NCBI GenBank assembly: GCA_946699065.1
Contig: CAMPDV010000005.1
Span: forward strand, 1,860,001 to 1,924,000
DNA: 64,000 nt
Direction of reading: 5' to 3'
Source of the DNA: Loxodes magnus
Lineage: Eukaryota; Ciliophora; Karyorelictea; Loxodida; Loxodidae
Under the pieces are notes generated by a model. That model worked only from the letters and a program-made list of their open reading frames with translations. It searched no databases and was not told where the DNA came from. This document shows, piece after piece, positions 7,224 to 41,300 of the stretch (positions are counted from its first letter, which is position 1; every line of letters starts with the position of its first letter). The position numbers and the translations under genes were made by a program.

Positions 7224-8508
7224 ATGAAAAAGGAACTTAGAAGTAAGTTTTTATTCCCTTTTAGAGAAGAGCAACCTTGTCAGTGGAGCTAAAAAATTTA
7301 GATAGGAGAAGAGGAAAAGGGACGAAGCCAGAAGATTGAGAAAAGAAGCTAAAAAATCTAAAGCTTTGAAATTTTCCAAGATCAAGTCAAAGAAACACAC
7401 AGAAATTCCTAATATGTTTCCTTTCAAGCAGGAATTAGTTCAAGAACTCGAGAGAAAAAAAGAATCTGAAAAGTAGAAGAGGTAACTGGAAATTTTGAAG
7501 AAAAAGGAGCAAAAGGAAAATTAAGATCTTCAGTAGTTGGTGATAAGTGCTTAATCTAAATAATTACTTTTTGATAGTAACTCTAATTAAGTACTCGAAG
7601 TTTCGAAAAAGCACGGAAGAGAAATTTAGCAGGTTATCGAGTCAGCTGACGTTCTTTTAGAAGTATTAGATATTAGGGATCCTGAATAATATAGGAGTGA
7701 GGAGCTAGAATCGAGTGTAGTAGGTAAACAAAAAAAATTAGTCATCATCCTCAACAAAATAGACTTAGTTCCACCCTAAATCGCTTATTAGTGACTTTTG
7801 CACTTTAAAACGATGTATCCTACTATTTTGTTTAAGAGCAACACTTAGAAATAATAGACTCACTTATTTTCCAAAAGTGTTTTCACTAAAAGTATGAGCG
7901 AAAATCCAGAATTAGCTCAGAATATCCTGAATTAATCCGGTGCTGTTGGAACTGAAGCTTTAATGAGTTTACTAAAAAATTACTGCAGAGATAGAGGAAA
8001 CATAAGTGTAGGAGTTGTCGGTTATCCTAACACTGGAAAATCTAGTATTATAAACTCACTTAAAAGATAAAAAGCAGTGGGCGTTAGCAATACTCCAGGA
8101 TATACTAAGTATGTTCAAGAAGTTGAAATTGATAGCAAAGTTAAGCTTTTAGATACACCTGGAATAATATTCGACAAAGATTTTAACTAAAATGATCCCA
8201 ATTTTGTCTTAAGAAACATCGTTTCAATATAGTACTTGAAGGATTTTTACACTCCTATCTAAGCTATACTAGAGAAAATTGACAAGCTAACCTTGCTCAA
8301 GAAATACGAGATTGCTGATTATAACGATATAATGGAATTTTTAGGAAACATCGGAAGGAGAAGAGGTAAGTTTAAAAAACATGGAGTTCCAGATTTTGAA
8401 GCTTCAGCTAAAATTGTATTACATGATTGGGTGACTGGAGGAATATCATACTACAAATTGCCATCATCAAGTATGGAAGTTGAGATGCCAGCACAGCCAA
8501 TTTCCTAA
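7224..8508 (+). CDS. nucleostemin/GNL3-type circularly permuted GTPase
   Basis: About 420 residues in two exons (7224-7242, 7265-8508), resembling the nucleolar GTPases GNL3/Grn1/Nug1 that act in large ribosomal subunit maturation. It has a basic, coiled N-terminus typical of the family. The GTPase motifs are in permuted order: a G5-like LDIRDP, then G4 NKIDLVP (about 170), then the P-loop GYPNTGKSS (about 259-267) and G3 DTPG (about 303). The conserved C-terminal block [19 protein letters not shown] is present. A 22-nt intron is required: the ATG frame and the body frame join only when it is removed. There is no in-frame TGA near the end; the first TAA after PAQPIS (8506) is taken as the stop. 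A longer model with an intron from 8570 is possible but less simple. Confidence 0.8.
7243..7264 (+). other. 22-nt intron
   Basis: Starts GTAAGTTTTT and ends CCTTTTAG. Removing it joins ATG-KKELR in frame to the basic N-terminus of the GTPase, as expected for the nucleostemin family. Confidence 0.75.
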
Positions 8509-9114
8509 ATGAACTAAACAAATAAAAACTTTTAAATTAATTAAGCCAAAATCAAGTTTACTTTATATTGTAAGTACCTATCAAATTTATTGGCTAAGAT
8601 GCTATAAATTTTATAATTTTATACTTTAATATCTAATCTTTTTCTCTTATCTTTTATTTCCAATTTTAGCTTATTTAAGCTCTATTGTATATTGAATAGC
8701 TAACTTTTATTTAGAAATATAAATAAAGCAAATATTAATTCTATTAACTCAAAAATAGATATAGATAAGAGTAACTTCTTAGCACGACTCAAACTGAACT
8801 GTAGTTTAATGATAAGCTTTTAGTTTTAAAGAGTACAGATGACTTATCACTTTAGCAGATAAGTACTTAAACTGCTCTTCTTTTATTTATCTTACTATTC
8901 CTCTTACTAATAAATCCTTAATAGGCTATTGAATAAATAATATCTTGATTTGAAAGTAATTTTCGTTAAAGTTGAGAGTAGTTTTACTGAAATAATTCAG
9001 TAGAGATAAAAAATCTAATTAATTAGAAAGTAGTAAAGATGAATATTAGTTAGAGATATGCACAGTGTAAGTAGACTGTTTCAAATAGAGTTTAAATGAT
9101 TAATTATTGTCAAG
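8509..9114. other. intergenic between convergent genes
   Basis: AT-rich, few CpG, no defensible coding frame. It carries the 3' regions of the GTPase and of the reverse-strand zinc protein. Confidence 0.5.
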
Positions 9115-11464: not shown

Positions 11465-14092
11465 ATGTCCAAAATAAAAAACGTGGGTCCTATAGTAGAA
11501 TCTGAGTTACAAAGCGATTCTGACTCGTAGAAGAAAAAGAAACCAAAATTTATATTTGATTACACTAAATATATTGGAGCTCCTCTACCTCTTACTGAAG
11601 GCTGTATGGAGTAAGAATGACCTCGTTGTGGAACTAATTTGAGAATAATTCCTTTAGTGTGCTTTTAAGGCTTTGAACCTATTGAACCTATTGGGGAAGT
11701 AGATCCCGATTTTGACCCAATGTGCATGTTTAAAGGATTAATTTAGGAATAAGAAATTCTATTAGCAGTAGCAGGTGCCACTTAGTCCAATGTAGTATAT
11801 AGAAGAATGGATAATTAAAGAGATTATTTATGCAATATACGAGAGCTAATTTCTAAAGACTATAAGAGAAAACCTGACTTCGTTTAGTTGCCTCCCTATT
11901 ACAAACTTCAAAGTTCTAGTGACAAAACTTTAGTTTTTGAGTCAAGGTTTGAAAGTGGAAATTTAGATATGGCAGTTAAGGTTAATGACAATGAATATAA
12001 TTTACTACTTCAAGTTGATATTAACACAAAGGGCCATACTCAGTGGTTTTATTTTTCAATCAGAAATACAAGAAAAGGAGAAGCCATTAAATTCAATATA
12101 ATGAATCTAGCTAAGCCAAATTCACTGTTTAACGAAGGTATGAAAGTCCTTGTGCACAGTGAATTTTTGCATTAATAGAACGGGACTGGATGATTTAGAG
12201 CAGGAAGAGAGATAAAATACTTCTGCAATGGATTTAAGCGTTCAAATAAAATAGATAAGTTCTACTACACTCTTACCTTTATAATCGATATTCCTAATGA
12301 TAACGATACTTTACACTTTGCGTATTGCTATCCTTATACTTATTCAGACTTAATCTAAGATCTATAGAAAATTGAAAATGATCCTAACAAAAGAAATTTT
12401 GTTAGCCGTTCTGTCTTATGCCGAACATTAGCTGGAAATAGATGTGATTACTTAACTATTACGAATCCTTAACAAGATATGGAAGCTAAGAAAAGTAAAT
12501 CAGGTGTATTCATGTAAGGAAGAGCACATCCGGGTGAATCAAACGGAAGTTGAATGATGAAGGGAGTTATAGACTTTTTGACAGGAGATTCAAAAGAAGC
12601 ATAAGTTCTGAGAGACAGGTTTGTATTTAAAATAATACCCATGATTAATATTGACGGAGTAATTAATGGAAATTATAGATGCTCTTTAGCAGGAACAGAT
12701 TTGAACAGAAGATGGAAAACTCCTTCTAAAGTATTGCATCCAGAAGTCTATTATGCTAAAAGACTTTGTAAAATACTGACTAGAGATTATCCTCTTGAAC
12801 TAATAATTGATTTTCACGGACACTCCAGAAAGAAAAATATTTTTGGCTATGGAAACAACATTAAAGAATAGCCAGAAGCAACTAGGCTTTTTCCCTTTGC
12901 TCTCAGCAAAATATCACCATACTTTAGCTTTAACAAATCTAGGTTTAAAATGTAAAAGAGCAAAGAGTAAACGCTAAGAATCACACTGTTTAAAGAAACT
13001 AAATGCTCTAATACTTACACCATTGAATCTTCTTTCTGCGGATCTGATTATGGAGATTTCAAAGATAGTCATTACACTAGTGAATAATTAATCGAATTGG
13101 GCAAATCTGTTTGTATAACTCTATTAATTCTTTCTGAGCAGTAGAAATAAATATAAAGAAGTCTAGCAGGTGAATCAAACTAAACGAAAGAAGAGTCATA
13201 GTAAACATCAGAAGTTGCTTAACTATTAATGAAAGAACTTAATTTGCCTTCTAGGGAAGAAATGATTAAAGAGATGCTATAGTGTTCTGAAAACATAAAT
13301 GACGGCAGTGATTCGAGCAGTGAAGGATCAGATTCCTGTCCATCTGATGATAACCTAAGTCAGAAATAATTAGAAAGACTACTGCCAATTAAAGCTGTTA
13401 GCAAGAAGCCAAAAAAGCCTAAAAGCTAAGAAAATAAATTAAGTGCTCAAAGCTTATTTAAAAAGAAGTTGGAGAACAATCTTAAAATGTAAATAGCATA
13501 AAAAATAAAGGAAAAGTGTCCTAATTGTGGAGAAGATATGGAAGAAGAGCATAAATGCAAAAAATTAGAGCAGAAACCAAGAATTCCCAGCAAACGAAAA
13601 TCACTTTTTCCATAGCAGGCTTAACAAAAGGTAATATATACGAACTATAAAGGGGTAAAAGTATCTGATGCTTCTACTTAAACTCCTGGACCACCTTTAC
13701 CTTAATTTAGGGCTATTCATAAAATTTAGCATTTAAGTAGTCCTAAAGGAAATATCTAGAATTTATAAAGTCAATAAAGCTTCAATGGCTATCAAGCAAT
13801 GAGACAAAATCCTAGCCTTGAAAAACTAAATTCTGTTCGCTTCAATAATAATCAGCAGCCATTGTCAAATAGAATGGATCAACAGAAAATCCTGAATAAT
13901 TATATGACGAATAATTTAAGTCTCACAGGAGGAGTATTGAGACAGAGTTGGAATTTAATGTCAAAAGCACCTAATTAGAGAGTAGTAGCAGCCACTCCCC
14001 AATATCAAAAAGCAGGAAAACTTTTAGAAAACTTGCAGACTGGAAAGAAAAATCCATCACCTACCAAAAAAAGTATGAGATAGTTCATTTGA
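11465..14092 (+). CDS. cytosolic carboxypeptidase (tubulin deglutamylase family, M14D)
   Basis: 875 residues, one exon. CCP/AGBL enzymes trim glutamates from tubulin C-termini and side chains, which controls ciliary microtubules. The family N-domain (about 140-290) contains LVFESRFESGNLDMAVKV and HTQWFYFSI. The zinc carboxypeptidase domain shows HPGES (His355, Glu358), then GNYRCSLAGTDLNR, DFHGHSRK (about 449-456) and YTIESSFCG with the presumed catalytic Glu521. These residues are intact, so it should be active. Residues 560-875 are a low-complexity Ser/Gln/Lys tail with a short Cys pair motif (CPNCGEDM). TGA codes Trp (for example NGTGWFRAG) and also ends the gene at 14090. Confidence 0.92.
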
Positions 14093-23679: not shown

Positions 23680-25635
23680 TCAGACAAATTCAACCATTAC
23701 GTCATCTACAGCTACTATATCTCCTGCTTTAACAAGTACTTTCTTTATTACTCCTGGCTTCTCGCTCTTTATGATGTTCTACATTTTCATTGCTTCAATA
23801 ACCAAAAGTTCTTAGTCTGAGATGACTTCCTAGCCTTCCTTCACAGCTACTGATTTGACTGCTCCTGGCATTGGTGCCTAAACTTCCTTACTTAGTTTAT
23901 CAGTCTTAAGTACTGGAGCATGTTGCAATAGCTCAAACTATTGACGGGTATAGATATAGGCATCTTCTAGACCACTTTTGTATTATAACTTAAACCTGAT
24001 ATTAGATTTATCGAATATCTAAATAGTTTCTCCATCTACTATAATACTAGGAGAAATAACATCCCATTAAACGGGAATTGTGTGACTTCTAATTCCATGG
24101 GGAACTGGTTCTTCGTGACTTACTATTCCACTTGTAATTTTATCTTCTTACAATAAACATGAATAGTACTGGTTACGGATATGAATAATGTAATGCAATA
24201 ATTCAGATTTTGGTTTCTTTTCCTTTTCACGAAAGAGGAAAGCGGCAACTTCAGCTAGATGGCGTCTATCTTCTTCAGGTAATTAGGCTACCTTATATCC
24301 TTATGGCCAAGTTTCTTAGATAAACTTAGTTGTGTAATTTCCCTCTTCGAATTTTTGATTGCTAAGTACATCTCTGCAGAAAATTATGTTGTGTCCAACA
24401 CCTCTTATTACGTATTCTTCTAAGGCTTGTTTTAACTTAGTAATAGCAATATCTCTTGTTTCTCCATGAGTAACAACTTTACTTATAATAGGATCATAGA
24501 AAACTGGAATTTCGTCACCTTCAAAAACTCCTGAGTCAACTCTAACATTTTGAGGTTCTCGGTAATAAGTAAGATGTCCTACACTTGGTAAGAATCCTTT
24601 CAAAGGATCTTCAGCATAAATTCTTGCTTCTACAGCATGTCCATTTATTTTTACCTGATCTTGAGTAATCGATAAGCGAGATCCTGCAGCAATTTTGATC
24701 ATTTCCTCTACCATATCAACACCTGCTACTAGTTCCGTAACAGGATGTTCTACTTGTAATCTAGTATTCATTTCCAAGAAATAGAAATTCTTATTTTTAT
24801 CAACCAAAAATTCCACTGTTCCAGAAGACTCATAATTAACTCCCTTTGCTAAAGCGACAGCTTGCTATCCCATTGTCTGTCTGAGTTCTGGAGTAATGAA
24901 AACAGATGGACTTTCCTCAATTACTTTCTAGTTTCTTCTTTGAACTGAGCATTCTCTTTCTGGCAGGTAAATCACATTTCCTTTAGAATCTCCTAAAATT
25001 TAGAATTCGATGTGTCTTGGCTCTACTACGAATTTTTCAATCAGAAGAGTATCATTACCAAATGCATTTGCTGCCTCGTTTTTGGCAAGTCTATAACTTT
25101 CAAGAAGTTAGCCTTCGTTCCATGCAATTCTCATACCTTTTCCACCACCTCCAGCTGAAGCTTTAATCATGACTGGATATCCAATTTCGCCTGCTACTTC
25201 TTTTGCATGTTTTTCGTCTTTTATTTCTCCAATAAATCCAGGAATCATATTAACTCCTGCTTTGCCTGCAATATGCTTAGATTCAATTTTATCTCCCATA
25301 GATAGAATAGCTTAAGCACTTGGTCCTATGAATTTAATGCCATTTTATGCGAGATCTCCTGAGAATTTTGTATTTTCTGAGAGAAAACCATATCCAGGAT
25401 GGACAGCATCAACCTTATGATCAATACAAGCCTATAAGATCTTGTCAGCCCTAAGATAAGATTCTTTTGAAGGAGCAGGACCGATGCACACCGCTTCGTC
25501 AGCTTCTTTAACGTGTCTAGCTCTACAATCAGCTTGAGAGTAAACAGCCATTGATTTAATGCCGAGCTTCTTGCATGATCGAATGATTCTGCATGCAATC
25601 TCTCCTCTATTGGCAACCAAAATCTTTGAGAACAT
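23680..25635 (-). CDS. PCCA: propionyl-CoA carboxylase alpha subunit (biotin-dependent)
   Basis: 651 residues, one exon. This subunit carries biotin carboxylase and biotin carrier functions. With the beta subunit it converts propionyl-CoA to methylmalonyl-CoA in the mitochondrial matrix. The biotin carboxylase domain starts at residue 1 ([19 protein letters not shown]). It contains the glycine-rich ATP loop [27 protein letters not shown] and [16 protein letters not shown]. The linker holds [10 protein letters not shown]. The biotin site is EAMKMQN with Lys617, whose flanks match PCCA better than methylcrotonyl-CoA carboxylase. Stop TGA at 23680. The model begins right at the catalytic domain with no targeting presequence, so a first exon may be missing upstream. 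Confidence 0.92.
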
Positions 25636-25859: not shown

Positions 25860-26174
25860 TCACTTCCACAGTTGAAAAAATTTAGCAGCATTTAATTAGG
25901 GCGTGAAACCTTGAATTTGAATAATTAGCCTATAAATAGAATATTTCAATGTCAATATAAAAAGAGAAATATTAGTATGTAATAAAATCACCTTTTTAGA
26001 TAATTTTTAGTACAACTTAATTAAATCAGACTAATTATCCTGTTCCATTTCATTAACTAATGCCTCCTTTATTATATTTGCTTACATCTATCTATTTAGT
26101 TCTCTTAACTTCAAATGTAATTTAAAAATTAGTTTAGATTACTCTTGAAGAAGCTGCATCCTATAGCATCTCAT
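25860..26174 (-). CDS. small helical protein with LYR-like start, tentative
   Basis: About 104 residues ending at TGA (25860). The N-terminus, MRCYRMQLLQEQSKL, then LKLRELNRQMQANIIKEAL and DLIKLYQKLSKK, is an all-helical charged pattern reminiscent of LYR-motif mitochondrial assembly factors (here CYR). The in-frame stretch upstream includes a second Leu-Tyr, so the true start may be earlier. Homology is not established. Confidence 0.4.
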
Positions 26175-28435
26175 TAATCTATTTTGGTAGAGCTACTAAG
26201 TAAAGTTTTTTAGCGTTAATACTTTATATTATATTATAGAAGCTTGAATATTAAATGAGTCTCATCTTATAGTAAAATGGTGAGATAATATTTGGAAGTT
26301 ATTAAGACTTTACATTTAATAATGAATCTCTATCTCCATTCAGATTTGTTGCCTTCTTACTGACTAATTTTAAACCCAAATTTGGCTGTATTAATACTAT
26401 CTAAGATGAGAACAAAGGGAGTTTAATTTTGCTTTAGTTATTTAATTAAGAGTAGAATACTAATAATTAAGCATTTTTATTTAAAATTAAAGTAACTAGG
26501 AAAAATGCAAAATTCTAGCTTTCAATCTAGCATCACTATTAATTACGCACTTTTGAACTATCTTAGTAAACTTGCTGCTTATACCATCATTTATATAGCA
26601 AAGCTTTACCCCTTTCTTAAAACTGCTATTTATTATTGATTCATTAGAGTTGATATAGTATATCAATGTAGCTTCTTTTACACCTTTTACAAAATAAGAG
26701 GAGCAGTATAGAGAACAATAAGTATGGGTATACCATAATTAATGTTAATAAGCTAGGATGCCAAGTATTTAACTTACTTCTAATTTTGATATTTTGACAC
26801 TTATTTTTTGATTATCAAAATTATCCTTAACATTCCTTATTTATACTTAAAGCTACTAAGTATAGCACTCCATCTCCATTTCTCTCAAGAAGAGCTATTC
26901 AATACTGAGTATCTAATAATCACTCTTTAGCAAATACAAATCATTTTCTCTTTACTATTGAACCCTTAGCTTTGATGAGTTAAAATGAAAGAGAGTAATT
27001 ATTGTAATAATTTAAGATAACTGTATGTAATAACTAGTATGGATATAGTCATAAGACTAGCTATTTATATAGTATAATCATTTTAATGGAAGAAGGAAGA
27101 GTTTAATAGCAATAAGTATAGCATTTGCTATATGCTAGTGCTTAGTTTTAATTACTTAGATCATTAAGCTAAAAAACAATAGCTCTTAATATGGTTATAC
27201 TCAAGAGGAAAATAGCACAAGATAGAACATTTTTTAGAGCTAATATTGATAATTAATGCCTGCTAATAGGCTATATAGACTAAAATCAACCAACTATAAG
27301 AGCTAAGAAGCTTATTAGAACTATAAAGGAAAGCATTTAAATTATAAGAAGTAAGGCTAAAATACTCATAAAGGAAGAAGCAAATCCTATCTAAGAAGTA
27401 AGGAACAAATAATAATACCATTGCTAAAGCAGATTCCACTCCTCTTTTAAGTTTATTTCTTATATTTATTATACTTCAAAATTAGCCAAGCACTAACTTA
27501 TAATCCTACCCTTAAGAGAAAATATTAAGGAAAATGGGAGCATTGCAAACACTTCCACATGATGTGAAGCTGAATAAGTAAAGAATTGATAGTAATACTT
27601 TAATTGAGTAGTAATCATACTATTGACTAAAAGAATGAAAGAATAAGAAAGATATAAGCTAAAAGTAATAAAATAAGTAAGGAAACAAAGTTAAAGCAGT
27701 GAAAACTATTAAGAACCTAAGTAGAGCTACTCAATATATTAGAAGTTTAAATTAGGAGTTTTAATCTTAATTAGTAAATAAACAGCAAAAGAACTATTTA
27801 GTGATAAATGAACATCTCTTAATTACTTTGATAATTCAAAAAGAGCAATTCTGTAAAACAAGTAAGAATAAGTTAATAGTAGGATATATTTTTAATTGTA
27901 AGTTTAAAATTTTATAAATAAGATTGTTATATATTTAGAAAGACTTCAAACACATTTTCTAAAAGATTCTTAAGAAAGTTTTGATGTCAAAATGATATAT
28001 ATAATTCATATATCAGGGATGTAAAAAAAAGTATGATAAAGCGAATAAAGTTAGAAGTAAGAAGACAGAAAATAAATAAAGTCTTTAGCAAGTTAATTAA
28101 GTAGGATAAAGTTTAAATAATTGCATTTATTAGCAAAAATATTGCTAATTATAGAGATAAGTATATATAAGTAGAAGTGATAATTCGTTAATTTACTGAT
28201 AATTTTTTATTTTGTTTATCTTAGAAATATTAGAAAAAAGAGAGTCAGATTTATTAAAATAAGAAGTTAAACATAAATAAACGTAGCTAAGCGTAGCCTC
28301 GACTTTCTTTTAAATGAATGAGTTTATAATAAATGAATATTGAAAGCATGAATATACTGTAAAATTTTTTATAAAGATGAATAAATTGAATTATTTTAAT
28401 TGTAAGATATAAAAATTTAAAGTTATGAAAGTCAC
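26175..28435. other. long intergenic region, non-coding
   Basis: About 2.3 kb with almost no CpG. Apart from a short GC-richer patch near 28270-28310 nothing stands out: no coding frame I would defend, no tandem repeat, no tRNA fold. Confidence 0.5.
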
Positions 28436-31400
28436 TCAGGTCATTTTCATAGTTTGAGATTTTGCAAGCGTTTTTGCGGTTCTAGGAGTTGTGGCCGAAG
28501 ATTTCCTTTCTTCTTCTTTTACAGTTTAAATTATAATTTTTTAAGCATCTAAAATATTAAAACTTACCAAAAACTTAGCATCCAAAACTGCCAAGACCAT
28601 ATTAAAGAGCGGTTATGCTAAATGCTTCTGGACTCATAACATCTGGATTTTAACCTTAAGTTCTTTCAAGTGCTTTGTTGAAGATTGTCATTACTTTACC
28701 TTCCTTAATATTAGGTTCTGCTCTCATGCATAAGTTTCTAAACTCTCTCAATTCTAAAGTTCCACTTCTATTTTCGTCTGCTTCGTTAAACATAACTTTT
28801 AGTTAATCATAATCACGAATTCTTTTAGTCTCATATTCATCAGCTATAACCGTCAAAAAAGCTGATTTAGAGCACATCCAAATTTCCTTATTTCTATATT
28901 TCTAGGTTAAGAAACCTATTTTATCAACAAATTCGGAATAACTTATATCGCCATTGTTATCAGAATCAATGTAAGCTAGCAAATTTTAGATTTCAGCTGG
29001 GTTAAGCCAGATATCTAGATAATTTTGCATTCCAGATATAAACTCTGTTGTAGAAATAGTTCCTGCTCCACTTTAATCAATCATATTAAATACATCTTTC
29101 GGCTGCTTTCCTAACTTTGCCATTTTCCAGCAAACCATGAACAAAGTAAAGTCGTTTCTTGAACTTTAGTCTGGTAATAACTTTGTCATAATATTGCCTC
29201 CAATGGATCTATCTTCCTTGAAAATTTAAATAATTACGTCAAATACATCAATTAGAGGTACCCAACCTCCACATTCTTAGAATTCAGTTGATTCCTTTCC
29301 TGGTAAAGCTGATTTGCTCTCAGTGGATCTTCCTTTAGCTTCAGAAGACGCTTTTCTTCTGTAATAAACGTCTTATATTTTATTGTAGGTTATTCTTATT
29401 CTAGTCAGGAAGGCCATCAAAATTTTATCAATGGGATCAGGATGATATATTTATAATAGTCTACAGAACAAAGATCCATATTCATGCTTTTGATTAAACA
29501 ACAATTCTAATGCAAGCATAAGTTGAGCTAATACCTTATTAGCTGTTGTTTTGACTTCATATTGTTGGATTAAGAAATCAGACAAGAATTGTTACATTGA
29601 TCGAGGCTAGATCTATGCTTGTAAATCAAGATTATCTTACTCAAATTTCTTATCCATAACAGTTTCAAATAATCTCCATACATTTGCAAATGCCATTGGC
29701 TTTTCTTCTTTCACTTAAGAAATTCTTCTGATGAGGATATTTTCTCTTATTACAATTTGTTTTTGCTTTAGTAATTCTTATTATATATCACCACTTATTG
29801 TTTCAAATTCTCCTAGAACAAATTAAAGTCCTTCAAATGGCTTTTCTCCTCCTTTATAGGTTTCCAATTCTTCTTCAAGCTATTTAATTCTTAAGTTAGC
29901 TTTTCTCAAGTTTGATTCAGCTTGCATTCTTCCTTGATGAATATTATCATAATCTTCAATTTTTTCTTTATTCTAATCTAATAATGACTTAAGTCGTTCT
30001 GCTTCATCAAGCCAATATTGTCTATCTTCAACCAATTTTTATAATTCTCCATTTTCTTTTTGGATTTTGTCTAAGACCTCTCTGAGATTTTTGTCCTGGA
30101 CAGCTGCTTCTAGTTATTATTTCAAATTTTAAGCTTCTTCTTAGAACTTTTATGCTTTCTCTTCCATTTCTTTAAGATTCTATGAATCGGGGCTTTAGCT
30201 TTTTAATTTCTATATATCTTCTTCATATTCAAAGTTTATTTTGTTGAGAGCGTTATTTTCCTAAGCTAACTCATCTACAGATTTTTGTAAGAATCTTCTT
30301 TTTTCCTCACTTTCCTTTAATTGCTACTTTAGCTTTTCATCTTCAACAGATTCTTAAATTTATGAAAACCTAGGGTCTCCAGCAACTTTAGCCTTAAGAT
30401 TCTCAAGTTCATGTTTTACCTTAATGCATTCTTCTGATAAGGGACGTATTTTTTCTAACTCTTCTTTTAGAACTCCATTCTGGCACTCTAGCTTCTCTAC
30501 TTACTACTAGAGTCTAGTCACTTTATCTAAATTCTTTTAATGATCTGCAATTTTGACTTATAGTTGCTTGTTATCCTCACTTAGTTTCAATAATTATTTT
30601 CTCATTTCCTTATTTTTTTCTGAGTTAATTTCTTCTTCTAGATTTTTGACTAATTTCCTTAGTCTTTCAATTTCGTCTTAATCTAGTTCATGATCAGCTT
30701 ATAATCTAATATTTTCTTCTTTCAGTTTCTAATTTTCTTTTTCTTACTCTTATATTTTCTCTTCCAATTCCTATATAATCTTCTTAAGCCTGTGAAGCTC
30801 AGCTTCTAAATCGCAAATTCTATTTTGTTTATCAGTCTTGAATCTCTAGAACTTCATTTGCTCATCTGATAATCTTGTCTCTAAGTCTTAGACTTCTTTG
30901 AACTTTTTGATTAGTTCTTTAAGCAATGCATCGAGCTTATCTTTGTTCACTTACTAATCTTTCTCAAGTTCAGAGCTTAACACCATGTATTTTGAATATT
31001 ATTATTCAGTATCTTTTACTTTATCTTGCATCTACTGGAAGAAATACATCAAATCCTCAAGTTCTTTCTTAAGGCCTAAGATTTATTCGTTCAATTTGTC
31101 ATTTTCGATTTTTAAGTTTTTAACTTCTTCATTGAGCTTATTGTTATCGTCTTCCAAAACCTTGCATTTGTCTTATAGTTCATCGATTAGCTTTTTCATT
31201 TTATCGTTGTCGTCATTAAGTTACTTTAATTCATCTTCCAATGCTTTAATTTTATCTTAAAACTACTAGTTCTCCTACTTTAGCTTATCATTTTAATCAG
31301 TTAGTTCTTTGATTTAATCGTGAAGATCTTGGCCTTCCTTTGTTTTCTATGCCTCTAGTTAAAATAGTTTTTGATCTTTAGGAACTTCTTTTCCAATTAA

Positions 31401-34400
31401 AATTTCAAGTGTCTGCTTGCTATCCTTAAGTAAGTGTTTCTCTTTAGCATGTATGATATTCAGGGAATCCAAAGCTGCATTTTAAGCAGCTTTAATTTGC
31501 TAAGCTAAGTCTTCTTTATCTTCCACTTGAGCAAGTCGTTAGATAATAGCATTTTATACATCAGATTCAGCTTCTAAAGGTACACTGATTTTTTTTATTT
31601 CGTTTAGTAACCTATTCATATCAGCAAGTAGCTAGATTTTGTACTACTTAAACTAATCCTGAAGATCATTAATCTATTTTTTGAGATCATCTATTTCTTT
31701 CTGTTTATCCTCTTATTCATTATCTTTACTTTCCATAATTTCATTAAGCTTGAGGATGTTTTCATTTGATTCAGTAAGCCGCTTATTTAGTTAATCCTTA
31801 TCATCTTTCACTTAATCGTACTCATCTTGTAGCTGCATAAGTCTGTCGTTTATTGCATCAAGTTCTTTCTATTTATCGTCTTACAATTTCTTTATCAGAT
31901 CTCTTTTATCTAGTTCTAGCTCGAATAAGTTATGTCTTAAATTAGGCTCGTTAGTTAAAAGGCAAAGCGTTGTTTGGCTTTCTTTTTGTAACTGATCTAG
32001 TAATTTATCCTACTCTTTGTTTAAATCTAAGCAGGCTTTAAATTGAGCTGGAAGCTTTATAGAAGAAGCTGTTTCTTCTGGAGGTATCTTAGACAAAATA
32101 TCTTCGACATTTCCTCCCATAAACTATATATTCTTCTGTTATCCTCTTATGATTTTATTCAAGGTTTGAGAATATCCATCCACTATCTCTGGAGTTATTT
32201 AAACTATCGAAGGAGCCTTATCACTGTCTACTCCTGAGCAAACGGCTACGCCTTAAATTTTCACATTAGCGGGTTTTAGTTCAATTCTGCACAAACTCCA
32301 TTCTAGATTCTTTAACCTTTCTAACTCGCCCTATCCTTCAAACATCTAAGTTTTAAGATCTTCCACCTAAGTATTTACATCTTCCAATACAGTATTGAAG
32401 TCAAGAGAATTGAAGAACAATTTCTTAAGGACGTCATAAGACCTAAGAAGAGTCTAGAACCAAACAGGATCAATAAGAGAGTCAGTGTAAAAATCTAAGT
32501 ACTCAAACTTTTGTCTCAGCTCAGTGCAATCCTTTTCATAATCGACTCCTTCTTAAGGAGAATTTCCTGATATTTATAGAATTTAAGGAACGATTTCATC
32601 AAAAATGATGCATATATCCTTATACTACTTCAGTAAACAATGCTCTTTGGATATTTCAAGTTTAAGAAGGATGTTATTTTAAATGGAAATGAAGTTGTTT
32701 ATTTCTAATAAGCATGTATTAGTGTAGTTTTCTATAATTGTCATCTATACTTCTTGCGTTTAGTACCTTTAATTAATATTGTATGGTAGTAACTTTATTA
32801 AGTCCCATTACTAATCTCTAAATTTGGCAATTGACTTATCTTTTATCTTTTCTAGCTCCTTCATGGTTTCTATGTAGAATATGATAAATTAAAAGTGAAC
32901 TGTTTGCTTGTCATTCGGCTTTACTTCTGCAACTTTATCTTGAAGATTCTTTAAAATTACCTTCGCTTCGCTTAAGAATTCGCTAATTCCTATATCTTTG
33001 ATAGTTTTGTACTATATCTTAAGAATTTCTTTGAGGTGATCGAATAACTAATAAAGATCAGCTTAATCAAGTTTTATCTTTCTTAGTTCTTCAAGTAAAT
33101 CCTTATAAGCATTAAGAGTTCCTTATACTTATGTTAAGTATTCATTACCTACATCAACAGTGAAGTTTAGATCTTATATAGGATCTTCACTGGCAAAGTA
33201 ATTTTCTATTTTTTTAACCTTCTTCTCCTTTGAAACCAGCTCCTGTTTTAATTTTTCAAGTTCAGACTTTTCAGCAACATAACTACCTTTCCATGGTTAA
33301 GCTGGTGGTAATAAAACACTTTTATTTGATTAAGAAAAGAGAGGAGAGAGAGGAGAGTCAGTTTAATCCTTGGATAATTTGATATCAGCAGAGTAAACTT
33401 GATAGTCCGTAGCTTGATCATATAAGAATTTAGGAACTGACATGAAATTTTTCTAATACTAGCCTTTGCTTGTCCAGAGATAGATAATTGCTAGTGCTAA
33501 ACATGTTAGAAGAGTACTACAGAAAACTTAGGGTGCTTAGACAACACAGCAAGAAAAGTGCAAAGGTAAACCTCCTCCTAGAACTTTAAAACAATTTCCT
33601 TCTTTAAGAGTAAATTTAGTAACTTAAGGCTAGATATATTAAACTTTGATATCTTGTATTTAGAAAAAGATTTCAAGATCTATTTCAGTATCTTAACCTA
33701 TTAAGCAAATAACACAGCCATTTTTTAATTTAGTTCCAATGGATGCGCTTATCTTTGTTCTATTCACTATTGCTAAAAAATCTGCCTCTTATAGAGCTTC
33801 ATCGAAATCTTTCAATTCAAAGCCATTTAAACTAGCTTTCAAAGCCAATTTACCATCAGATTCGCAAACTATTACTTTAGCTCCTCCTATATCTCTAAAA
33901 GCTAAAGCTGCTTCTTTGCCTATTCCTGAAAATCCAATTTGAACAACTGTTCTTCCAGATAAGGAAACTTCACTTAAATTACTAACCGAAGATGGAATCA
34001 TTGAGGCAAGATGTTGGTCAAAAGCACCAGAAGCAGTTGAAAATTCACTAGACAAAGACATTGGAGTGAATCTTAATTGCTAAGGAGAAATCTTCTTATA
34101 CAAATTTTTGGCTACCAAACTATCATCAGTACAAGCTAAAATGTTTTATGTGATTGTTCTGAAAAATTTAGGATCATTTTAGTTCTATTCAATTAAAAAT
34201 TCCTTCAATAAAGTGTAATAATCAAAATCTTATGTTTTAGGCATTTTTTTAAAAGGCATGAAATTAACCCAAGTTTTTTTCTTTAAATACCCTAAATCGC
34301 TTAGTTCAGGAACTTTTTTATGTTATTCAATGAAAGTTTCAAAATCTACTCCAATATGAATGAACTCACTCAATGTTCCTTAACTGTCTACTATTAGATC

Positions 34401-34781
34401 AGGTCCTTTCTTGTCAGGAAAAACGAGCACACATTTCAAGCACTCGAAATATTCTCTATATGTTTGATCTTTCCAAGCAAAAACTCCTGCACTGAAGTTT
34501 TCTACAAGTGCAGCAGCAACAGCATCCTAAGTATGTAAACATTTATCTGAAGTCCATTAAATTTCAGCTCCTAAACCTTTAAGTGTTTCAATAAAGCATG
34601 CAACTTAGGGGGTTATATGCATACATCCAGCAATCTTAGCACTTTTCAAAGGCGCTTTCGCGGCCTAATCATCTGCCAAAGCTTGCAGACCGGGTAAATG
34701 CTAATTGATAGCTTCAATGTCTCTACGACCAGCGGAAGCTAATTTAAGATCTCTTATCCAATAGTCGTCAGTCTTTTACAT
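28436..34781 (-). CDS. AHCY-like pseudoenzyme fused to coiled-coil/EF-hand protein
   Basis: 2,108 residues in two exons (34781-28568, 28548-28436). Residues 1-440 follow S-adenosylhomocysteinase from end to end: LASAGRRDIEAINQHLPGL, IAGCMHIT, the Rossmann segment RTVVQIGFSGIGKEAALAF (about 275-295) and IGQDTEIDLEIF. Catalytic positions are degraded: the DDGGD motif reads DSQGT, the active-site Lys and Cys are missing, and the NAD glycine motif is GxSxxG. Residues 500-1650 are a nearly unbroken coiled coil. EF-hand-like loops follow at about 1897 (DQSGAGTISTTEF), 1934 (DSDNNGDISYSEF) and 1995 (DENRSGTLELREF). The basic tail ends at TGA. No in-frame ATG or gap lies between the parts, so the fusion looks genuine. 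Likely a structural, calcium-sensing protein; its ciliary location is a guess. Confidence 0.8.
28549..28567 (-). other. 19-nt intron
   Basis: Reads GTAAGTTTTAATATTTTAG on the minus strand. Removing it joins SFGCQVF to a Lys/Glu/Ser tail that ends at a TGA. Confidence 0.8.
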
Positions 34782-35328
34782 TTTTAATTATTAATTAAAC
34801 GTCTTCTTATATAGATGGGAAACTAGAAATAATAATTGAAATTCGTTTATTTTTTAAACTTTATATCAACTTTAATTTTTAATCTTCCATATAACCTATT
34901 TAACTAACACTTCCATTAGCTTTTCTACTTAGATGCTATCAGCTATACAAAGCACTATTCCCTTCTTCTCTTCAAACTTCTTCTACTTTACTCTTAAACA
35001 ATATACACCAAAGTCATCTCCTTAACAAATTAGCGTGTTCAAATCTTAACTGGAGATAAAAGCGAGAAATTTAAAAATTTAAAAGATAAAAAGATAAAAA
35101 TAAGCAAAAAGAGGTAAAAAAATAAGGTTTAAAAAGGATAATGAAAAGAAATACTTAACAAAGATATTAGACTACTTACTGATGAATATATTAACAAATG
35201 CTTATTAAATTACTACTAGTAATTTAAAATTAAACGTCTTTATAAAATGGAACTTAATCTAGTTTAATGTATTAAGTAGGAGGGATGCTTTTATAAATAA
35301 TTTAAATTATCTATGATAATCATCAAAC
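34782..35328. other. gap between AHCY fusion and guanylyl cyclase
   Basis: Apart from the fragment at 34866-35060, this is AT-rich non-coding DNA with T-rich runs on the minus strand. It includes the 3' end region of the cyclase gene. Confidence 0.4.
34866..35060 (-). CDS. coding-like fragment upstream of the AHCY fusion, start unknown
   Basis: In frame with the AHCY-fusion ATG at 34781 but separated from it by a TGA (34866) and about 80 AT-rich bases. It reads TLICQGDDFGVYCLRVKQ, then KKGIVLCIADSIQVEKLMEV, a purine-rich and CpG-containing stretch. It may be the end of a small gene whose first exon I cannot find, or an N-terminal part of the fusion protein if the TGA is Trp or lies in an intron. 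No family recognised. Confidence 0.35.
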
Positions 35329-38300
35329 TCACTTCTGTTAGCTCTCACATATTACAAAATAACAACTTATCTCCACATCTTAATTGTCGCTATCTTAGCT
35401 TTTAATAAGTACCTTTTTGTTGAATTCATATGAATATGGAACAGAAGCACACTGATCTAGTAGGTTTTTGGTTTTGTGGCTTACGTTAATAAAGCCGGGC
35501 TATCCGTTGCTTTCCATTAAGTTAGCAATTTTTACTGCTGGGCCATAAATGTCGTACCTAACAATGTTACTACCACTAATACCACCTATTATTTTCCCCA
35601 CATGTATACCTATTCTCAATTATATTTTGGCATTACACTCCTTGCATACTTCTTCAATTGCCACTATTAGCTCTAACGAAAATTTCATCATGTTCTTGAG
35701 TTCCTAATTTTTATCACGCTACTCCTTTTACAAGGAACCATTATAGCCAATAGCAACATAGCAGTCCCCAATAGTACATACTTTATAGCAGTCATTTGAG
35801 ACACATAAATTATCAAATTTAGCAAAAAGCTTAGAGAGCATTTCTATAACCTCTTTGGGTTATTTATTACTTGCAAACGTAGTGAACCCTACTATGTCTG
35901 CAAATAAGATTGGTACATCTTCTAACTCTTCTGCTACAGTTTCCCCTTACTTCATTTGCTCTAATACATGTAGAGGCATTAAATGAGTCAGCAAATTCTC
36001 TGTCTTGCTGATTTCTTCCATAGTAGCCTTTTGGATTTTATAAGCGTTTATTTCATTTTTTTCCTTTACATATACAGACTGAAGCAACAGCACCTTGCAA
36101 CTGAGAATTATCTCTAAAAGAACGAAAAACAGATGAGAGTCAGCTATCATGACTTTGAGAATAATGATCTCTAATGTTATGAGGAGAAGGAAAGTAATTA
36201 GAATCTAATTGAGCATTAAGTTACATTCATGAGCTATTAAAATGGAGTAAAAGCAAATGATAAATCCAACTTCTGCATTTATAATGTCAGTATAAAACAG
36301 GAACAGTAAGATGCATATAGAATAGAGTGCTGTACTAAAAAATGATTGAAGGATCAAACCCTTTTTGAGTAAAAAGACAATGAAGTATACAACATGAAAA
36401 AATATCCAGATGCTCTGAAAAATTATCACTATAAGATATTTTTCCAGCTTGAAGCTTTTGCTTAGAGTCATCAAATTTATTAATACTAAGTTTAAGCAGA
36501 AGCTAGCAATTATACCAAAGATATTAAGGAAAAAGGAGTTGTCTAGCTTATTCTGAATAAAATCTTTCTTATTCTATATGTTTTTATATCGGTAAGGAAA
36601 GCAGATCATTTCAAATATTTTCTTAACGAACTTTCGCTTTTTATCACTTTCTTCTTCCTCTACAATTTATTAGAAAATAGTATCAAATTAGCTTGTATTT
36701 ATACGTCTGACACTTTCTAATTTTATTAATGCTTGCTTTTTGTTTTTAAAACTATTAAATTTGCTTTATTCAATTATAGATGAAGCCTAACTTAAGCTAT
36801 TACTCACTTTCATTTTGTTTATTGAATTATTCAATGCATTCGTAAAACTTTAACTTGAGATAGCAGTACTCTAGAATCTTTCTTAGTTTTGTGGAATAAG
36901 TTTGTTTTCTTAAGAAATTTTCTGTTAGTTTTCATCCAAAATAATCTAACTAGGAACTTTGGACTATTGCTAGCATTCCTATTATACATCTTACTCCTTT
37001 TATTATTTTGGTGCTTCTAAGGATTGAATCTTTAACTTTTCTATTGCTTTTTGTTCGTTGCTTTCCGATAAACATTGGTCCTCGTTAGAAATGGTTTGAA
37101 TTTACTCTCCCTTACTATAAAAGCTCCTTGAGCTAAGAGCTTTAATATCCTTATCAAATACAAGCAGAGAGTTTAATTATTGATTAGATTGATATCCATT
37201 AGTTTTCATTGTAGAGCTAGTTTTTTTTTTCTAGTTAACATCTCTTTCTTCTTCTAGTTATTTATTAAAAGTTTTACTTTCTTCCTTTCGATTTTAATTT
37301 TCAACATTCTACTATTCATCGTTTATAACAACTTCCTGCTACTTCATATTACTCTTTTATTATTTAAGATGTCATATTTGTAGAGGAGAAAGTAAACCCT
37401 TTTTAGGAGAATTGTAAAGAGCTTACGACGAATTTCATTTGAAGTTAAATGATTTTTTATCTTGCTTTGAAGATAGATTCACTTTTACTTCTTAGATTTC
37501 CTTAGTTGCTTGCTATTCAATCTTTTCTTATTACTATTTTTGGGATATAATTTTGGTTAATAGATTTGAAAATAAATTTTGCTTCTAATTCCTCTCAGAA
37601 GGTTTCTGGATTTATAAATCTTAACTAACTTTCTCTTCACTCTGTAGTAGCTTGATTTCTTTCATCTAGTTAACTTATAAGCTTTGAAATTCTCTTTATT
37701 TTACTTCTTTTTATGGATTATTTATGTTTTATAGAAACTTTAATATTTTCAGAGAGAAAAGCACATTTGATATTGTTAGATTCTTGGTCTTGTAAAGGGT
37801 TGGGTTACTGAAGTAGATTGCTTAATTCTTCTTGAGTTTCTCTTCAAGATTTGATCAGATATTAGTTTTATCTTACGTTAGGTTATTTGCTCCCTCTATT
37901 TTATTAGTCAGATTTAATAACTAATGCTTTATGATTTACTTAGTTACTGATTTTTTTCATGAAAGCTTTTCCTAAAAGACTAGGTAAGTAGTTAGCATGC
38001 CTTTTCCTTTTATATTCAATTCTTCCTCCATAAAATTTAAAAAGGCTAGTTTGTTTACAAAAAAATAGGTTGTTTGAGAAATTCTTATGCACATTGGCAC
38101 TTTCACATTGCTACACATGCGACTGGCTGTATTTACTGTGTCTCCAACAAGTGCGAATTGAGGCTTGTTTTATCCTACAACACCTGCAATAACAGGTCCA
38201 GAATGTATTCCAATTGTGATCTAAAGAGGCTTTCCATCCTTACGTGTCATGTTTTGAACACGCCTTATCATATCAAGAGCAAGCTAGAGAGTACGTTCTG

Positions 38301-41300
38301 CATGATTTAGCTATACATCTTGATCTTAGTCTTCTTCAACATTATAAATTAATCCCCCACATGCCATATAAGTTTTCCCTACTGTTTCTATTTTATCCAC
38401 TTTATGAATCTCACACAGCCTATCAAACGAGAGCTATATTTCATTTAGCAACTCTATTAGCTACTTAGGAGTATGTATTTTGCAAATTTCATCAAAGTCA
38501 TAAATGTCACAAAACAGAATGGTAACCATTTTATGATCATCTACAATATTGGGATCTCCTTACTTAACTCTAAACATTATAAATTCAGGAAAGAGGTTAG
38601 ACAGTATGTCATGATACTGCTAGATGGAGTTTTAGATGCATTATTTAAATACAAACTAATTCCTTTGGATATTATCTTGGCTATATAATATAGACACTGA
38701 AACTGTATAAATCAGAACTATTATTAAAGAGCGAAAACCTAGACACAGATTCGAGTCCCCTTTACAGAAGTTCGAAATAAAATGCTGATTAAATTATGAT
38801 TACTGTACATATTGGCTAATCAAAAAACCTACCACTAGCAAAAAATAAGCTATTCCAACTTTGAAGGCATAAATGGTATAAGTAAGCATTGCTAAAATGA
38901 TAGCATACAGTATGAAATAGTCATTTCCGTTTATTTATAGAATAAGCGTGCAAGAAAGTAAGAGAAAGGCATTGAATTGGGCAATTAGCTGCTGTAAATT
39001 CTCCTTTATAAGTTTAACTTTGACTATCATAATGTAAATAAAAGAAATGGCAATATAGCAGCTGCAGTATCATAACTATGCATGTTTAATATTTTTAAAG
39101 TTTGAGGCTAGAATAATTATGACAACTATAAAGTTAATCATCAATACTTTACCAGAAATAAGTAGCACGCTTTTGATCTTTTTAATAAGGAAATTAACGT
39201 ACTTCTACTCCAGGTACTAATTCTGGAATTTATGCTTGTACTTTATCATTTTATATTCCTTCTAGTTTGCTATGATACTCTATCCCAAGTTCTTATTAAG
39301 ATCAATAATGTCATTGAGTCTTTTCTTGAACTGATCGTATCTTACGTTTAGATTGCTTATTTTTATTTACTACTATTCGTTCATTATTTATTTAAACGCT
39401 TACAGCTTTTACAGCTACTGAAGCTTCTAAATTAAATTTGGATTCCAAAACATTTTAATGAACTAAAAGCTTTGGATTCCATAGTTAACACCAGTTACTA
39501 GTATAATGGTTAGTCAGAAATTGATACTTTGATATATTTTGAAGTAGTCTACGTATTCTTCTTCTTGTTAAAGCATAAACATTTCGAATGGCTGCTAGAT
39601 AAGTAATTATAAAATCACAATCAAAATTACGATTAAGATGGATATTATAGGGATGTAGTTCTATAGCTAAACAAACTTTACTGCTAGGTTTATTAGAGTG
39701 CAAATGTATATTACTCCAACTAAATATCTCTAGGTTAGGATAAATGTCTGTAAGTTCTATTTTTCTAGTGAATAGTTTACTATTAAGTATATAACAAGAG
39801 ATTGAGCGGAGGCGTTAAAGAATATCTTAAATAAGTTTAGAAAGGAGTAAAACTTGTGAGTGAAATTGTTCTCGTACTACTGTGGAACATGCATGCTCAT
39901 TTTCTAGCCTAGATCCTACTCAAACATACCTAATAGCAGTGCAAAAACTCCTGTTGTTAAGAATTGAATTAAGATAACATGTATCATATTATTGCTAGGC
40001 AAGCTGCTAAATCCGTTATTAAATTGGTAGAAAAATATTGGCATTACCATCAAAAAAGCCGAGTAAATTTAGAACTCTATTGTTTTGCAAAATCTAATGT
40101 ATATGTATCTACCATGTACTAGTAATAGTCTTGGAAGCATTGATAAGCTTGTAATGCTTATGTCACTAATTTTCTAACTTAAGAAATTATTCTAATTTTA
40201 GATAGCTACACCAACATTTGCTAGATTTAGCATCTAAACGTCAGATATCCCATTTCCAACACAAAGAACTTTAGGTTTAAAGCTGAATTACTCTTTATAA
40301 AACTGTATAAGATTTGCTTTGTCTTTGGCGTTTGCATTAGATAAAATAATTGCGCTGCAATTAAATATCAGCATCGTGAAATATTCTGTAGATGCTAGAT
40401 CTCTTTGAAGTAGTCTAAAGGATTGAGAATCCAAAAAAAGAACTAAGTCTTTTCTTTTTGTCTATTGTGATAAATTGTTGGTTCCATGCTTTACATTTAT
40501 ATAAGAATTAAAACCTTCTTTGTTTTCCTGCTACTATAAATATTCTTCTACTTCTGCTACACTGTTACTAACAGACGAGGTACCTCTTCCTAGACGCAAG
40601 CTGGCAAAGCTTAATGAAGTTTTTCTTCCTTAAACTGAAAAGTTATTAAACAAGGTTTTAATATTATTAGTCTATACATCCCAGGTGGATCTTCTAAACA
40701 ACCCAAAAGTTTTAAGATTTTACCATCCATTTGAAATATCATCCTATTATTCAAATGAGTTTAGCTCATCCGTTATTTAATTTATTTATATTTTTACTGT
40801 TTTGCTCAGTTTTAGCTTACTTTTATTATTTTAGGGCTTCTAAACTTACTAAATTTTATTAGACAGATCTTAGAAATTTTTTTTTATGGCTTACTAATTA
40901 GTATTTGATTACATAAATGATTCCTCTGAAAAGAAGCTAGCTTTAGATATTACTTAAGATTCCATAAAGACAAAATGCTGGAGAATCTATTACAGTTTTC
41001 ATCTAACAACCTCTACTGACTTCTATTTCAAAACTTTTAATTTAATCTATTCATTTGTTATTATCTTCGAATTTAACGAAACTGAAGCTGCAGATCAAAT
41101 ATCATCGCTAGTTACCACTGTTGGTGTAATCCCCATACTTTATATAATCTAGACTGATTTCTTATTATCGTCTGAAATTTTGTATCCAAAGACAATTGCA
41201 CCTTTGAAAGTTAAATCTCTTTCAATTCATTTAGCTAAAGCACTTAGCCTTTTATTTTAGTTTTAAGTTGACTGCTTAGCGTCTATATACTCATTTTAGA

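Follow-up and report, generated by a model that had tools for sequence, protein, structure and literature searches.

On the minus strand of the window (the whole 64,000-nucleotide stretch of Loxodes magnus DNA that was analysed), a single gene is predicted to encode a protein of 2,108 aa in which an S-adenosylhomocysteinase (AHCY) fold, a conserved stretch, a coiled coil of about 700 residues and a tail of 380 residues bearing three EF-hand loops follow one another in one frame. The predicted fusion is part of a 12-member family within a much larger family sharing the EF-hand tail, and the domain architecture, as read from the sequences, is well supported. Probably an AHCY was duplicated, deprived of its active site and attached to long rods, and now forms part of a calcium-responsive cell skeleton. 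We give about an even chance to the more specific reading that the AHCY-like cap is a dead head, oligomerising or partner-binding, on a calcium-responsive filament protein; the fusion, the residue loss, the selection, the EF-hand loops and the family are drawn from sequence comparison.

The gene runs from an ATG at 34781 to a TGA stop ending at 28436 (34781..28436, minus strand), with one predicted intron of 19 nt. The coordinates and strand given by an earlier, sequence-only reading of this DNA are correct, the end of the TGA falling at 28436 once the intron is removed; before removal, the open frame under table 6 spans 28245..34781 (2178 aa). The standard code leaves 26000-37000 without any overlapping open frame of 100 aa. 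The L. magnus macronuclear assembly (706 Mbp) is assigned genetic code 27, in which TAA and likewise TAG are read as Gln and, once TGA is taken as Trp as well, no stop codon is left. The window gene has no in-frame TGA in its 2,108 codons, compared with 24-124 in the other five frames. Its predicted intron (28549..28567, minus strand; GT...AG), near the 3′ end, is of typical L. magnus size, and its removal yields VFDAQ in the window gene where the relatives L027, L030 and L031, read intronless, have IFNAQ or VFNAQ. An alternative 3′-end intron of 52 nt, picked by eye, was dropped, since the 19-nt one fits the L. magnus intron size and the relatives are intronless there. Exon 2 (28436..28548, minus strand) encodes a short C-terminus, basic and Ser/Thr-rich, together with the stop.

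The cap comprises residues 1-475 (33357..34781, minus strand), and its assignment to the AHCY fold, as claimed in the sequence-only reading, has the agreement of Pfam, a PDB sequence search and a Foldseek match of the predicted structure. Pfam gives 152 bits for AdoHcyase (PF05221) and 72-74 bits for AdoHcyase_NAD (PF00670); the best PDB match to the window protein is the AHCY 3ond (E 8.9e-53, residues 6-476). The NCBIfam equivalog TIGR00936 scores 180.3 bits, below its curated cut-off of 497.6. The cap model (pLDDT 73.4) matches 3ond with a TM of 0.68 and an rmsd of 6.3, an agreement that is partly built in, the alignment used for the model including real AHCYs. That alignment, A4, was made after A2, in which the bacterial active-site columns fell on a cap insertion and which was not used, and after a smaller alignment, A3; A4 omits five (L066 and L072-L075) of the 13 rows that A2 had from bacteria or archaea, and L076 was excluded from the outset, its match length not being divisible by three.

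Twenty-two AHCY positions (one of them, labelled E59?, of uncertain choice) were checked in an alignment of the 12 caps. We take Lys186, Asp190, Cys195, His301, His353 and Glu156 (human numbering) to be the key residues of AHCY. Lys186, Cys195, His301 and His353 are kept in none of the 12 caps, Glu156 and Asp190 in one each, and all six are changed in the window gene; the single canonical AHCY of the genome retains them. At Lys186 each of the 12 caps has a gap in this alignment; in A4 the window gene has Ala there. The loss of catalytic Lys, Cys and Asp described earlier is thus borne out, Lys186 and Cys195 being gone and the window gene also lacking Asp131 and Asp190. The caps are most likely catalytically dead derivatives of AHCY. 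In the enzyme, the C-terminal Lys426 and Tyr430 reach the NAD site of the neighbouring subunit; Lys426 is aligned in two of the 12 caps and Tyr430 in 11, the latter a count that we do not trust, the canonical row running past its own stop there.

Between the cap and the coiled coil lies a stretch of about 500 residues (476-980; 31842..33356, minus strand) with two blocks conserved in the paralog alignment. Block 1 (residues ~508-560) has 29-87% identity in 10 paralogs and 10% in the paralog C4, and block 2 (~868-985) has 36-81% across 11 paralogs. Residues 476-980 gave no informative database match; a PDB search with residues 481-980 returned one match, a kinase (E 0.007), which was taken as chance. 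The coiled coil occupies residues ~981-1690 (29712..31841, minus strand) and was delimited by heptad periodicity with a home-made score: windows above the 99% level of shuffled sequence cover 10-57% of positions per 100 residues at 901-1700, and 0-3% in the cap and tail. The sequence-only reading had the fold running straight into about 1,150 residues of coiled coil and EF-hand loops; that length fits coil plus tail (981-2108), and the reading left the intervening stretch unmentioned.

The tail module (residues 1692-2071; 28569..29708, minus strand) consists of about 190 residues with no match in Pfam or a PDB profile search, followed by an EF-hand region. Pfam EF-hand scores above its cut-off, and the window gene has canonical 12-residue loops, as had been claimed: loop 1 (DQSGAGTISTTE; 29043..29078, minus strand) has five of six key positions, and loops 2 (DSDNNGDISYSE; 28932..28967, minus strand) and 3 (DENRSGTLELRE; 28743..28778, minus strand) have all six. 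The tail recurs across the genome in 83 matches, corresponding to about 76 places, where it is elsewhere preceded by thioredoxin-like, RING-like or coiled-coil N-termini; the RING-like heads are tentative, seven having been spotted by eye and one of these scoring above the Pfam cut-off. Axonemal proteins (EFCAB6, RSP7, RIB57 and CCDC81B) are among the best PDB matches to the tail profile, with calmodulins close behind. In the best 60 of 535 PDB hits the match is confined to the EF-hand stretch (profile ~179-273), and an axonemal reading was rejected, solely EF-hand columns aligning among the matches listed. A tail structure predicted from the single sequence (pLDDT 40.7) was not used.

The genome holds 12 AHCY-like genes, that of the window included, which group apart from the single intact AHCY. 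In a tree containing no AHCYL sequence, a branch with 100/100 support sets the 12 caps apart from nine enzymes. All 12 genes align from the cap into a common stalk in one frame, and seven also into the tail. Six of the paralogs (C20, C26, C3b, C196b, C193 and C4) align in one frame over nearly the whole protein at 27-40% identity, with TGA read as Trp. The other five (C71, C3a, C53, C196a and C11) keep cap and stalk, with no tail in the DNA retrieved around them and no tail match at these places in the genome search; because these five of 12 have no EF-hand tail, a calcium response would not be common to all capped proteins. The EF-hand loops vary among the tails as well: all three are degenerate in C4 (3, 3 and 2 of 6 key positions), the first two in C3b (4/6 each), and the third in C196b (2/6), C26 (3/6) and C193 (4/6). 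A tail tree does not resolve either way whether the AHCY-capped tails form one group. In the well-covered columns of the 12-gene alignment, 28 of 58 TGA codons face TGG in another member, compared with 1.7% of other codons, in support of TGA as Trp. For the remaining 30, no other member has TGG in that column (9/14 in C196b, 8/11 in C4), and some copies may therefore be decaying.

An apparent fusion could arise from two genes lying head to tail, which look joined only through the decoding of TAA and TAG as Gln. Among the paralogs an uninterrupted frame is no proof in itself, since reading TGA as Trp leaves no stop, and in three members (C20, C3a and C26) a Met stands shortly ahead of stalk block 1. 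The window gene, however, has no TGA in frame throughout, cap and stalk occur in identical frame and order in 11 paralogs (26-67% identity), stalk block 2 is conserved in all members, and no Met at the junction is common to all 12. Nor is GC low at the junction (0.353, versus 0.210 and 0.245 in the flanks), a weak test because GC falls to 0.20-0.23 inside the cap too. On frame openness, paralog alignments, absence of a shared Met and junction GC the two-gene reading was rejected, and we consider it very improbable; the claim of a fusion stands on the same open frame and the 11 further genes. The statement that no in-frame ATG separates the two parts holds in substance: Met447 still belongs to the cap, and no other Met follows until 640. 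A TAA near 33300, named earlier as a possible stop, cannot end the frame provided that the DNA is from L. magnus, in which TAA encodes Gln.

For the fused protein we propose head oligomerisation, coil dimerisation, calcium binding and filament formation, and a place in the cell skeleton. AHCY is normally a tetramer, and the duplicated head, its chemistry gone and its fold retained, would act as a node for oligomerisation or partner binding; a linker replaces the C-terminal Lys426/Tyr430 tail of AHCY, which may prevent the canonical tetramer. The conserved stretch and then the long coiled coil would follow, the coil dimerising and setting length, and calcium binding by the tail would alter assembly or attachment to give a calcium-responsive filament or network. 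The sequence-only reading had offered a structural or ligand-sensing cap, of which the structural or binding option fits better. A cap acting as a metabolite sensor, still binding NAD, adenosine or SAH and relaying its state to the filament, we regard as unlikely. NAD binding by some caps is possible because Glu243, which terminates the Rossmann strand (11/12), and two of the three Rossmann glycines (first 11/12, third 10/12) mostly remain. Also in favour of a sensor, Asp131 (11/12) and His55 (8/12) are mostly kept, and the Pfam NAD-domain match still reaches its 72-74 bits. Against sensing, the second glycine is kept in 2/12 and Thr158, Thr159, Lys186, Cys195, His301 and His353 in 0/12; two of the three glycines are missing from each of C26, C193 and C196b, and the window gene has lost Asp131. 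It is more doubtful still that the caps regulate the canonical AHCY through mixed oligomers, tethering or inhibition, as proposed for AHCYL1. A genome with one intact AHCY and 12 relatives without catalytic residues would suit such a role, and an AHCY:AHCYL1 interaction is discussed in PMC12955632, whose authors, however, report that they failed to see it in their own tests; identity between the caps and the canonical enzyme, moreover, is only 26-31% in the aligned columns. That the cap is a functionless relic on the stalk would account for the missing catalytic residues, and is hardly credible given the substitution pattern: between the window gene and C71, pN/pS is 0.28 in the cap (pN 0.195, pS 0.699) and 0.25 in the middle stretch (pN 0.180, pS 0.711), and at 41 cap columns at least 11 of the 12 members are identical. 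The cap is, by these measures, under purifying selection similar to that on the middle stretch.

Beyond the capped proteins, we tentatively suggest, as a possibility rather than an expectation, that the Loxodes family of ~76 loci builds a filament system that responds to calcium and belongs to neither actin nor tubulin. It would combine a shared EF-hand tail, some of which may have a new fold, with coils of varied length and exchangeable heads (AHCY-like, thioredoxin-like, RING-like or a membrane helix), derived from enzymes or zinc-binding domains and acting as nodes and address labels. If the tail responds to calcium, this karyorelict ciliate would have a filament system with parts other than the centrin, spasmin and Tcb2 of other ciliates. 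The oligomeric state of the head is directly testable, and head exchange on one tail offers a natural experiment in the takeover of enzymes as structural parts.

The domain combination, described earlier as without known precedent, was not found among the literature matches listed, nor was the capped or tailed family among those listed on myonemes, the Loxodes cytoskeleton, or Loxodes coiled coil and calcium. To EFCAB6, RSP7, RIB57 and CCDC81B the tail is alike in its EF-hand part, with no indication of an axonemal place. Tcb2 is described in PMC12661445 as a ciliate EF-hand protein assembling into calcium-triggered networks. The window protein resembles Tcb2 and the centrin/spasmin filament systems of ciliates in being an EF-hand protein. 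We know of no enzyme-derived head in those systems. With the AHCY enzyme it shares both domains, their order (residues 6-476) and the predicted fold, but it lacks Lys186, Cys195, His301 and His353, has a linker in place of the C-terminal Lys/Tyr tail, and carries about 1,630 further fused residues. A close parallel is with animal IRBIT/AHCYL1 and long-IRBIT/AHCYL2, in which, according to PMC7966362 and PMC12955632, the dead AHCY domain is a multimerising and protein-binding module; there too an inactive AHCY domain (inactive here as judged by residues) is joined to a coiled coil, in a setting of calcium and ion biology. In IRBIT/AHCYL, however, a regulatory region and the coiled coil precede an AHCY domain placed at the C-terminus, whereas in the window protein it is N-terminal, the match starting at residue 6 and the rest following, and the Loxodes coiled coil is very long, with an EF-hand tail in seven of the 12 members. 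Loxodes appears to provide a second case after IRBIT, seemingly separate from it, in which a core enzyme of the methylation cycle has become a non-catalytic component; in Loxodes this component heads long coiled-coil proteins and is multiplied to 12 copies.

The main text of the Loxodes magnus genome paper (PMC11441545) describes a macronuclear assembly of 706 Mbp, read with NCBI table 27—TGA is the only stop and can also encode Trp—and introns with a mean of 19.3 and a mode of 17 bp. The frame at 34781..28245 on the minus strand is open over 2,178 codons under table 6; with the standard code, 26000-37000 has no overlapping frame of 100 aa. Removal of a predicted 19-nt intron (GT...AG, 28567-28549, minus strand) near the 3′ end of the window gene gives a protein of 2,108 aa and a terminal TGA with 28436 as its last base, which bears out the gene end proposed by the sequence-only reading. 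There is no in-frame TGA in the 2,108 codons, with 44 expected from base composition; the other five frames contain 41, 124, 24, 24 and 39.

Directly upstream of the window gene, a minus-strand frame (40965..37957) combines a P-type ATPase C-terminal match with a guanylate cyclase domain; another cyclase domain comes next (37347..35329, minus). The region 40965..35329 looks like the ATPase/guanylyl cyclase type of ciliates and apicomplexans. Other frames in the window are a biotin carboxylase plus biotinyl domain (25635..23680, minus, 651 aa) like acyl-CoA carboxylase alpha subunits, an M14 carboxypeptidase-like frame (12554..14092, plus) and a GTPase (MMR_HSR1) frame (7798..9042, plus).

The window gene is one of a family. 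A Pfam search for adenosylhomocysteinase (AHCY) across the whole assembly, as searched here (705,730,643 bases in 7,843 contigs, with the window at C5:1860001-1924000), returns 14 matches, counted as 13 genes: one canonical (on contig C265, 435 bits) and 12 divergent, including the window gene. The full window protein as query finds 29 places. Paralogs, named here by contig with a and b for two on one contig, were aligned to the window protein in one frame with TGA as Trp; the one-frame alignment is what counts and the open frame is not, because reading through all three stops leaves none. The AHCY-like cap and the stalk are present in 12/12 capped genes and the C-terminal tail in 7/12. Six relatives align from cap to tail end: C20 (residues 1-2083, 40% identity to the window protein), C26 (18-2088, 36%), C3b (3-2170, 30%), C196b (1-2082, 30%), C193 (2-2092, 28%) and C4 (3-2102, 27%). 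Five have cap and stalk without the tail—C71 (1-1575, 67%), C3a (1-1536, 37%), C53 (1-1553, 33%), C196a (1-1482, 33%) and C11 (1-1582, 26%)—and none of these five places is matched in the genome-wide search for the tail. Two tandem pairs are found (C3 and C196). The nearest relative, C71, is tail-less, and C38 has a short coil and a tail 62% identical to that of the window gene, with no AHCY match; together, C71 and C38 form a split counterpart of the window gene.

Well-covered columns of the 12-gene alignment contain 58 TGA codons, 28 of which share their column with a TGG from a different gene; for other codons the rate is 1.7%. Because of this pairing and the published table 27, TGA inside genes is taken as Trp. 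No TGG partner is present in the same column for 30/58 TGA codons (9/14 in C196b, 8/11 in C4), so some capped copies are possibly decaying.

At the cap-stalk junction there is no Met common to all 12 genes; C20, C3a and C26 have one just ahead of the first conserved stalk block, and those of the window gene are at 447 and then 640. GC at the junction (33222-33422) is 0.353, and the 200-base flanks outside the two gene ends have 0.210 and 0.245, but this is weak evidence because GC inside the cap also drops in places to 0.20-0.23.

The cap (residues 1-475) matches the Pfam families AdoHcyase (152 bits) and AdoHcyase_NAD (72 bits) inside residues 6-471, and AHCYs top a PDB sequence search (best 3ond, E 8.9e-53, residues 6-476). 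Its NCBIfam AHCY equivalog score of 180.3 bits is below the 497.6 cut-off. An AlphaFold model of residues 1-475 (pLDDT 73.4, pTM 0.64) superposes on 3ond with TM 0.68 and rmsd 6.3, a supportive match without independence, because eight bacterial AHCYs were in its input alignment. We scored 22 cap positions, which we take to be catalytic or ligand-binding sites of human AHCY (numbering as in that protein), against the canonical gene; one, labelled E59?, is uncertain. Each cap retains 6-12 of the 22. No cap keeps Cys195, His301, His353, Thr158, Thr159 or Lys186, the last of which falls in an alignment gap; Glu156, Asp190 and Asn191 are kept in 1/12, and the second GxGxxG glycine and Thr276 in 2/12. 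Intermediate are Thr57 (4/12), the E59? position (5/12), Asn346 (7/12), His55 (8/12) and Thr157 (9/12); the third glycine is kept in 10/12 and the first glycine, Asp131 and Glu243 in 11/12 each, Asp131 being lost in the window gene alone. Lys426 (2/12) and Tyr430 (11/12) are unreliable, the canonical row extending beyond its own stop there.

Comparison of the window gene with C71 gives, for the cap, residues 471-980 and the coil in that order, pN of 0.195, 0.180 and 0.209 and pS of 0.699, 0.711 and 0.801; dN/dS is about 0.1, a rough figure because synonymous sites are saturated or nearly so. A midpoint-rooted tree, built from the 12 caps together with eight bacterial AHCYs and the canonical gene, separates the caps from the nine enzymes by a branch with 100/100 support (C193 is flagged as a long branch and C196b for composition). 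From this branch, the lost residues and pN below pS, the 12 caps therefore look like the product of one old duplication, enzymatically dead and under ongoing selection. A sensor role for the cap retains some probability, since most members still have the Rossmann acid and two of the glycines. We read the window protein as a pseudoenzyme probably put to structural use at the head of a coiled-coil protein with EF hands.

Two blocks are conserved in the stalk: block 1 (~508-560) is 29-87% identical to that of the window gene in 10 paralogs and 10% in C4, and block 2 (~868-985) is 36-81% identical in 11. Using a home-made heptad score rather than a published predictor, windows above the 99% shuffle level make up, per 100 residues, 10-57% at 901-1700, 0-25% at 501-900 and 0-3% in cap and tail. 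By eye, block 2 also lies in tail genes on C41 and C2 (loci L080 and L082), within long upstream near-perfect coiled-coil tandem repeats of several hundred residues, each with the stalk block; these imply either giant proteins or assembly repeats.

The tail module—the 380 residues preceding the intron—has three EF-hand loops. Of the six key positions, the window gene has 5 in loop 1 and all 6 in loops 2 and 3. Counts out of six for loops 1-3 are 6, 5, 5 in C20; 6, 5, 3 in C26; 6, 6, 4 in C193; 5, 6, 2 in C196b; 4, 4, 6 in C3b; and 3, 3, 2 in C4. Every family matching at least 7 of 15 tail members in a Pfam scan is of EF-hand type, and the best stretch for the tail profile in PDB is within ~179-273 (best 60 of 535 matches). 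On both counts the first ~190 tail residues have no match, within the families hit by at least 7 of the 15 members and within those best 60. Single-sequence structure prediction of the tail gives pLDDT 40.7, too low to define a fold.

One tail as query gives at least 83 matches at E <= 1e-10 in the assembly, a lower-bound count that becomes about 76 places once seven split matches are merged by hand. The tail matches at C897:53233-57507 (L031) and C2897:131-4405 (L032) are identical, as are the translations compared, and probably represent one locus in two contigs. Tail genes cluster at C1:1230000-1570000 (L021-L025 and others), and some, among them L022 and L023, are almost identical, which suggests recent local duplication.

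Upstream DNA was inspected at 38 of the ~76 places, counting L031 and L032 once and viewing 1.5-6.6 kb where there is no AHCY cap. AHCY-like caps are found at 7/38 and thioredoxin-like heads at 4/38 (L028, L030, L031, L043), all four above the Pfam cut-off. The thioredoxin-like heads may also be losing catalysis, because two keep CxxC (CGPC, CEPC) and two lack the first Cys (TWSC). RING-like N-termini occur at 7/38 (L078, L081, L084, L085, L048, L049, L060), one above the cut-off, and L077 (1/38) has, by eye, a possible membrane helix at the N-terminus. The other 19/38, Pfam-scanned in part, show coiled coil or nothing recognised, a count that does not equal headless genes. Among 18 tails placed in a tree, those of thioredoxin type cluster with L027 (100/100), and the coil tails from C1/C6 also cluster (100/100); the AHCY-capped tails are not resolved as a group.

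No such AHCY fusion appears among the literature matches listed, which mostly leave out subscription papers, and the main text of PMC11441545 contains none of adenosylhomocysteinase, coiled, calcium, cytoskelet or gene famil. Architecture, residue loss, selection and family membership we regard as established at the level of sequence; as to function, the head is most likely an oligomerising or partner-binding node. In this reading the rod bearing the dead AHCY head would be long and dimeric, and its tail would respond to calcium. According to PMC7966362, the AHCY domain in IRBIT and long-IRBIT forms homo- and hetero-multimers and binds AE2, and PMC12955632 describes AHCYL1/2 as inactive owing to substitutions. 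IRBIT and long-IRBIT offer a precedent for AHCY-domain multimerisation and partner binding. Tcb2, a Tetrahymena EF-hand protein that forms networks on calcium (PMC12661445), is a precedent for calcium-triggered EF-hand networks.
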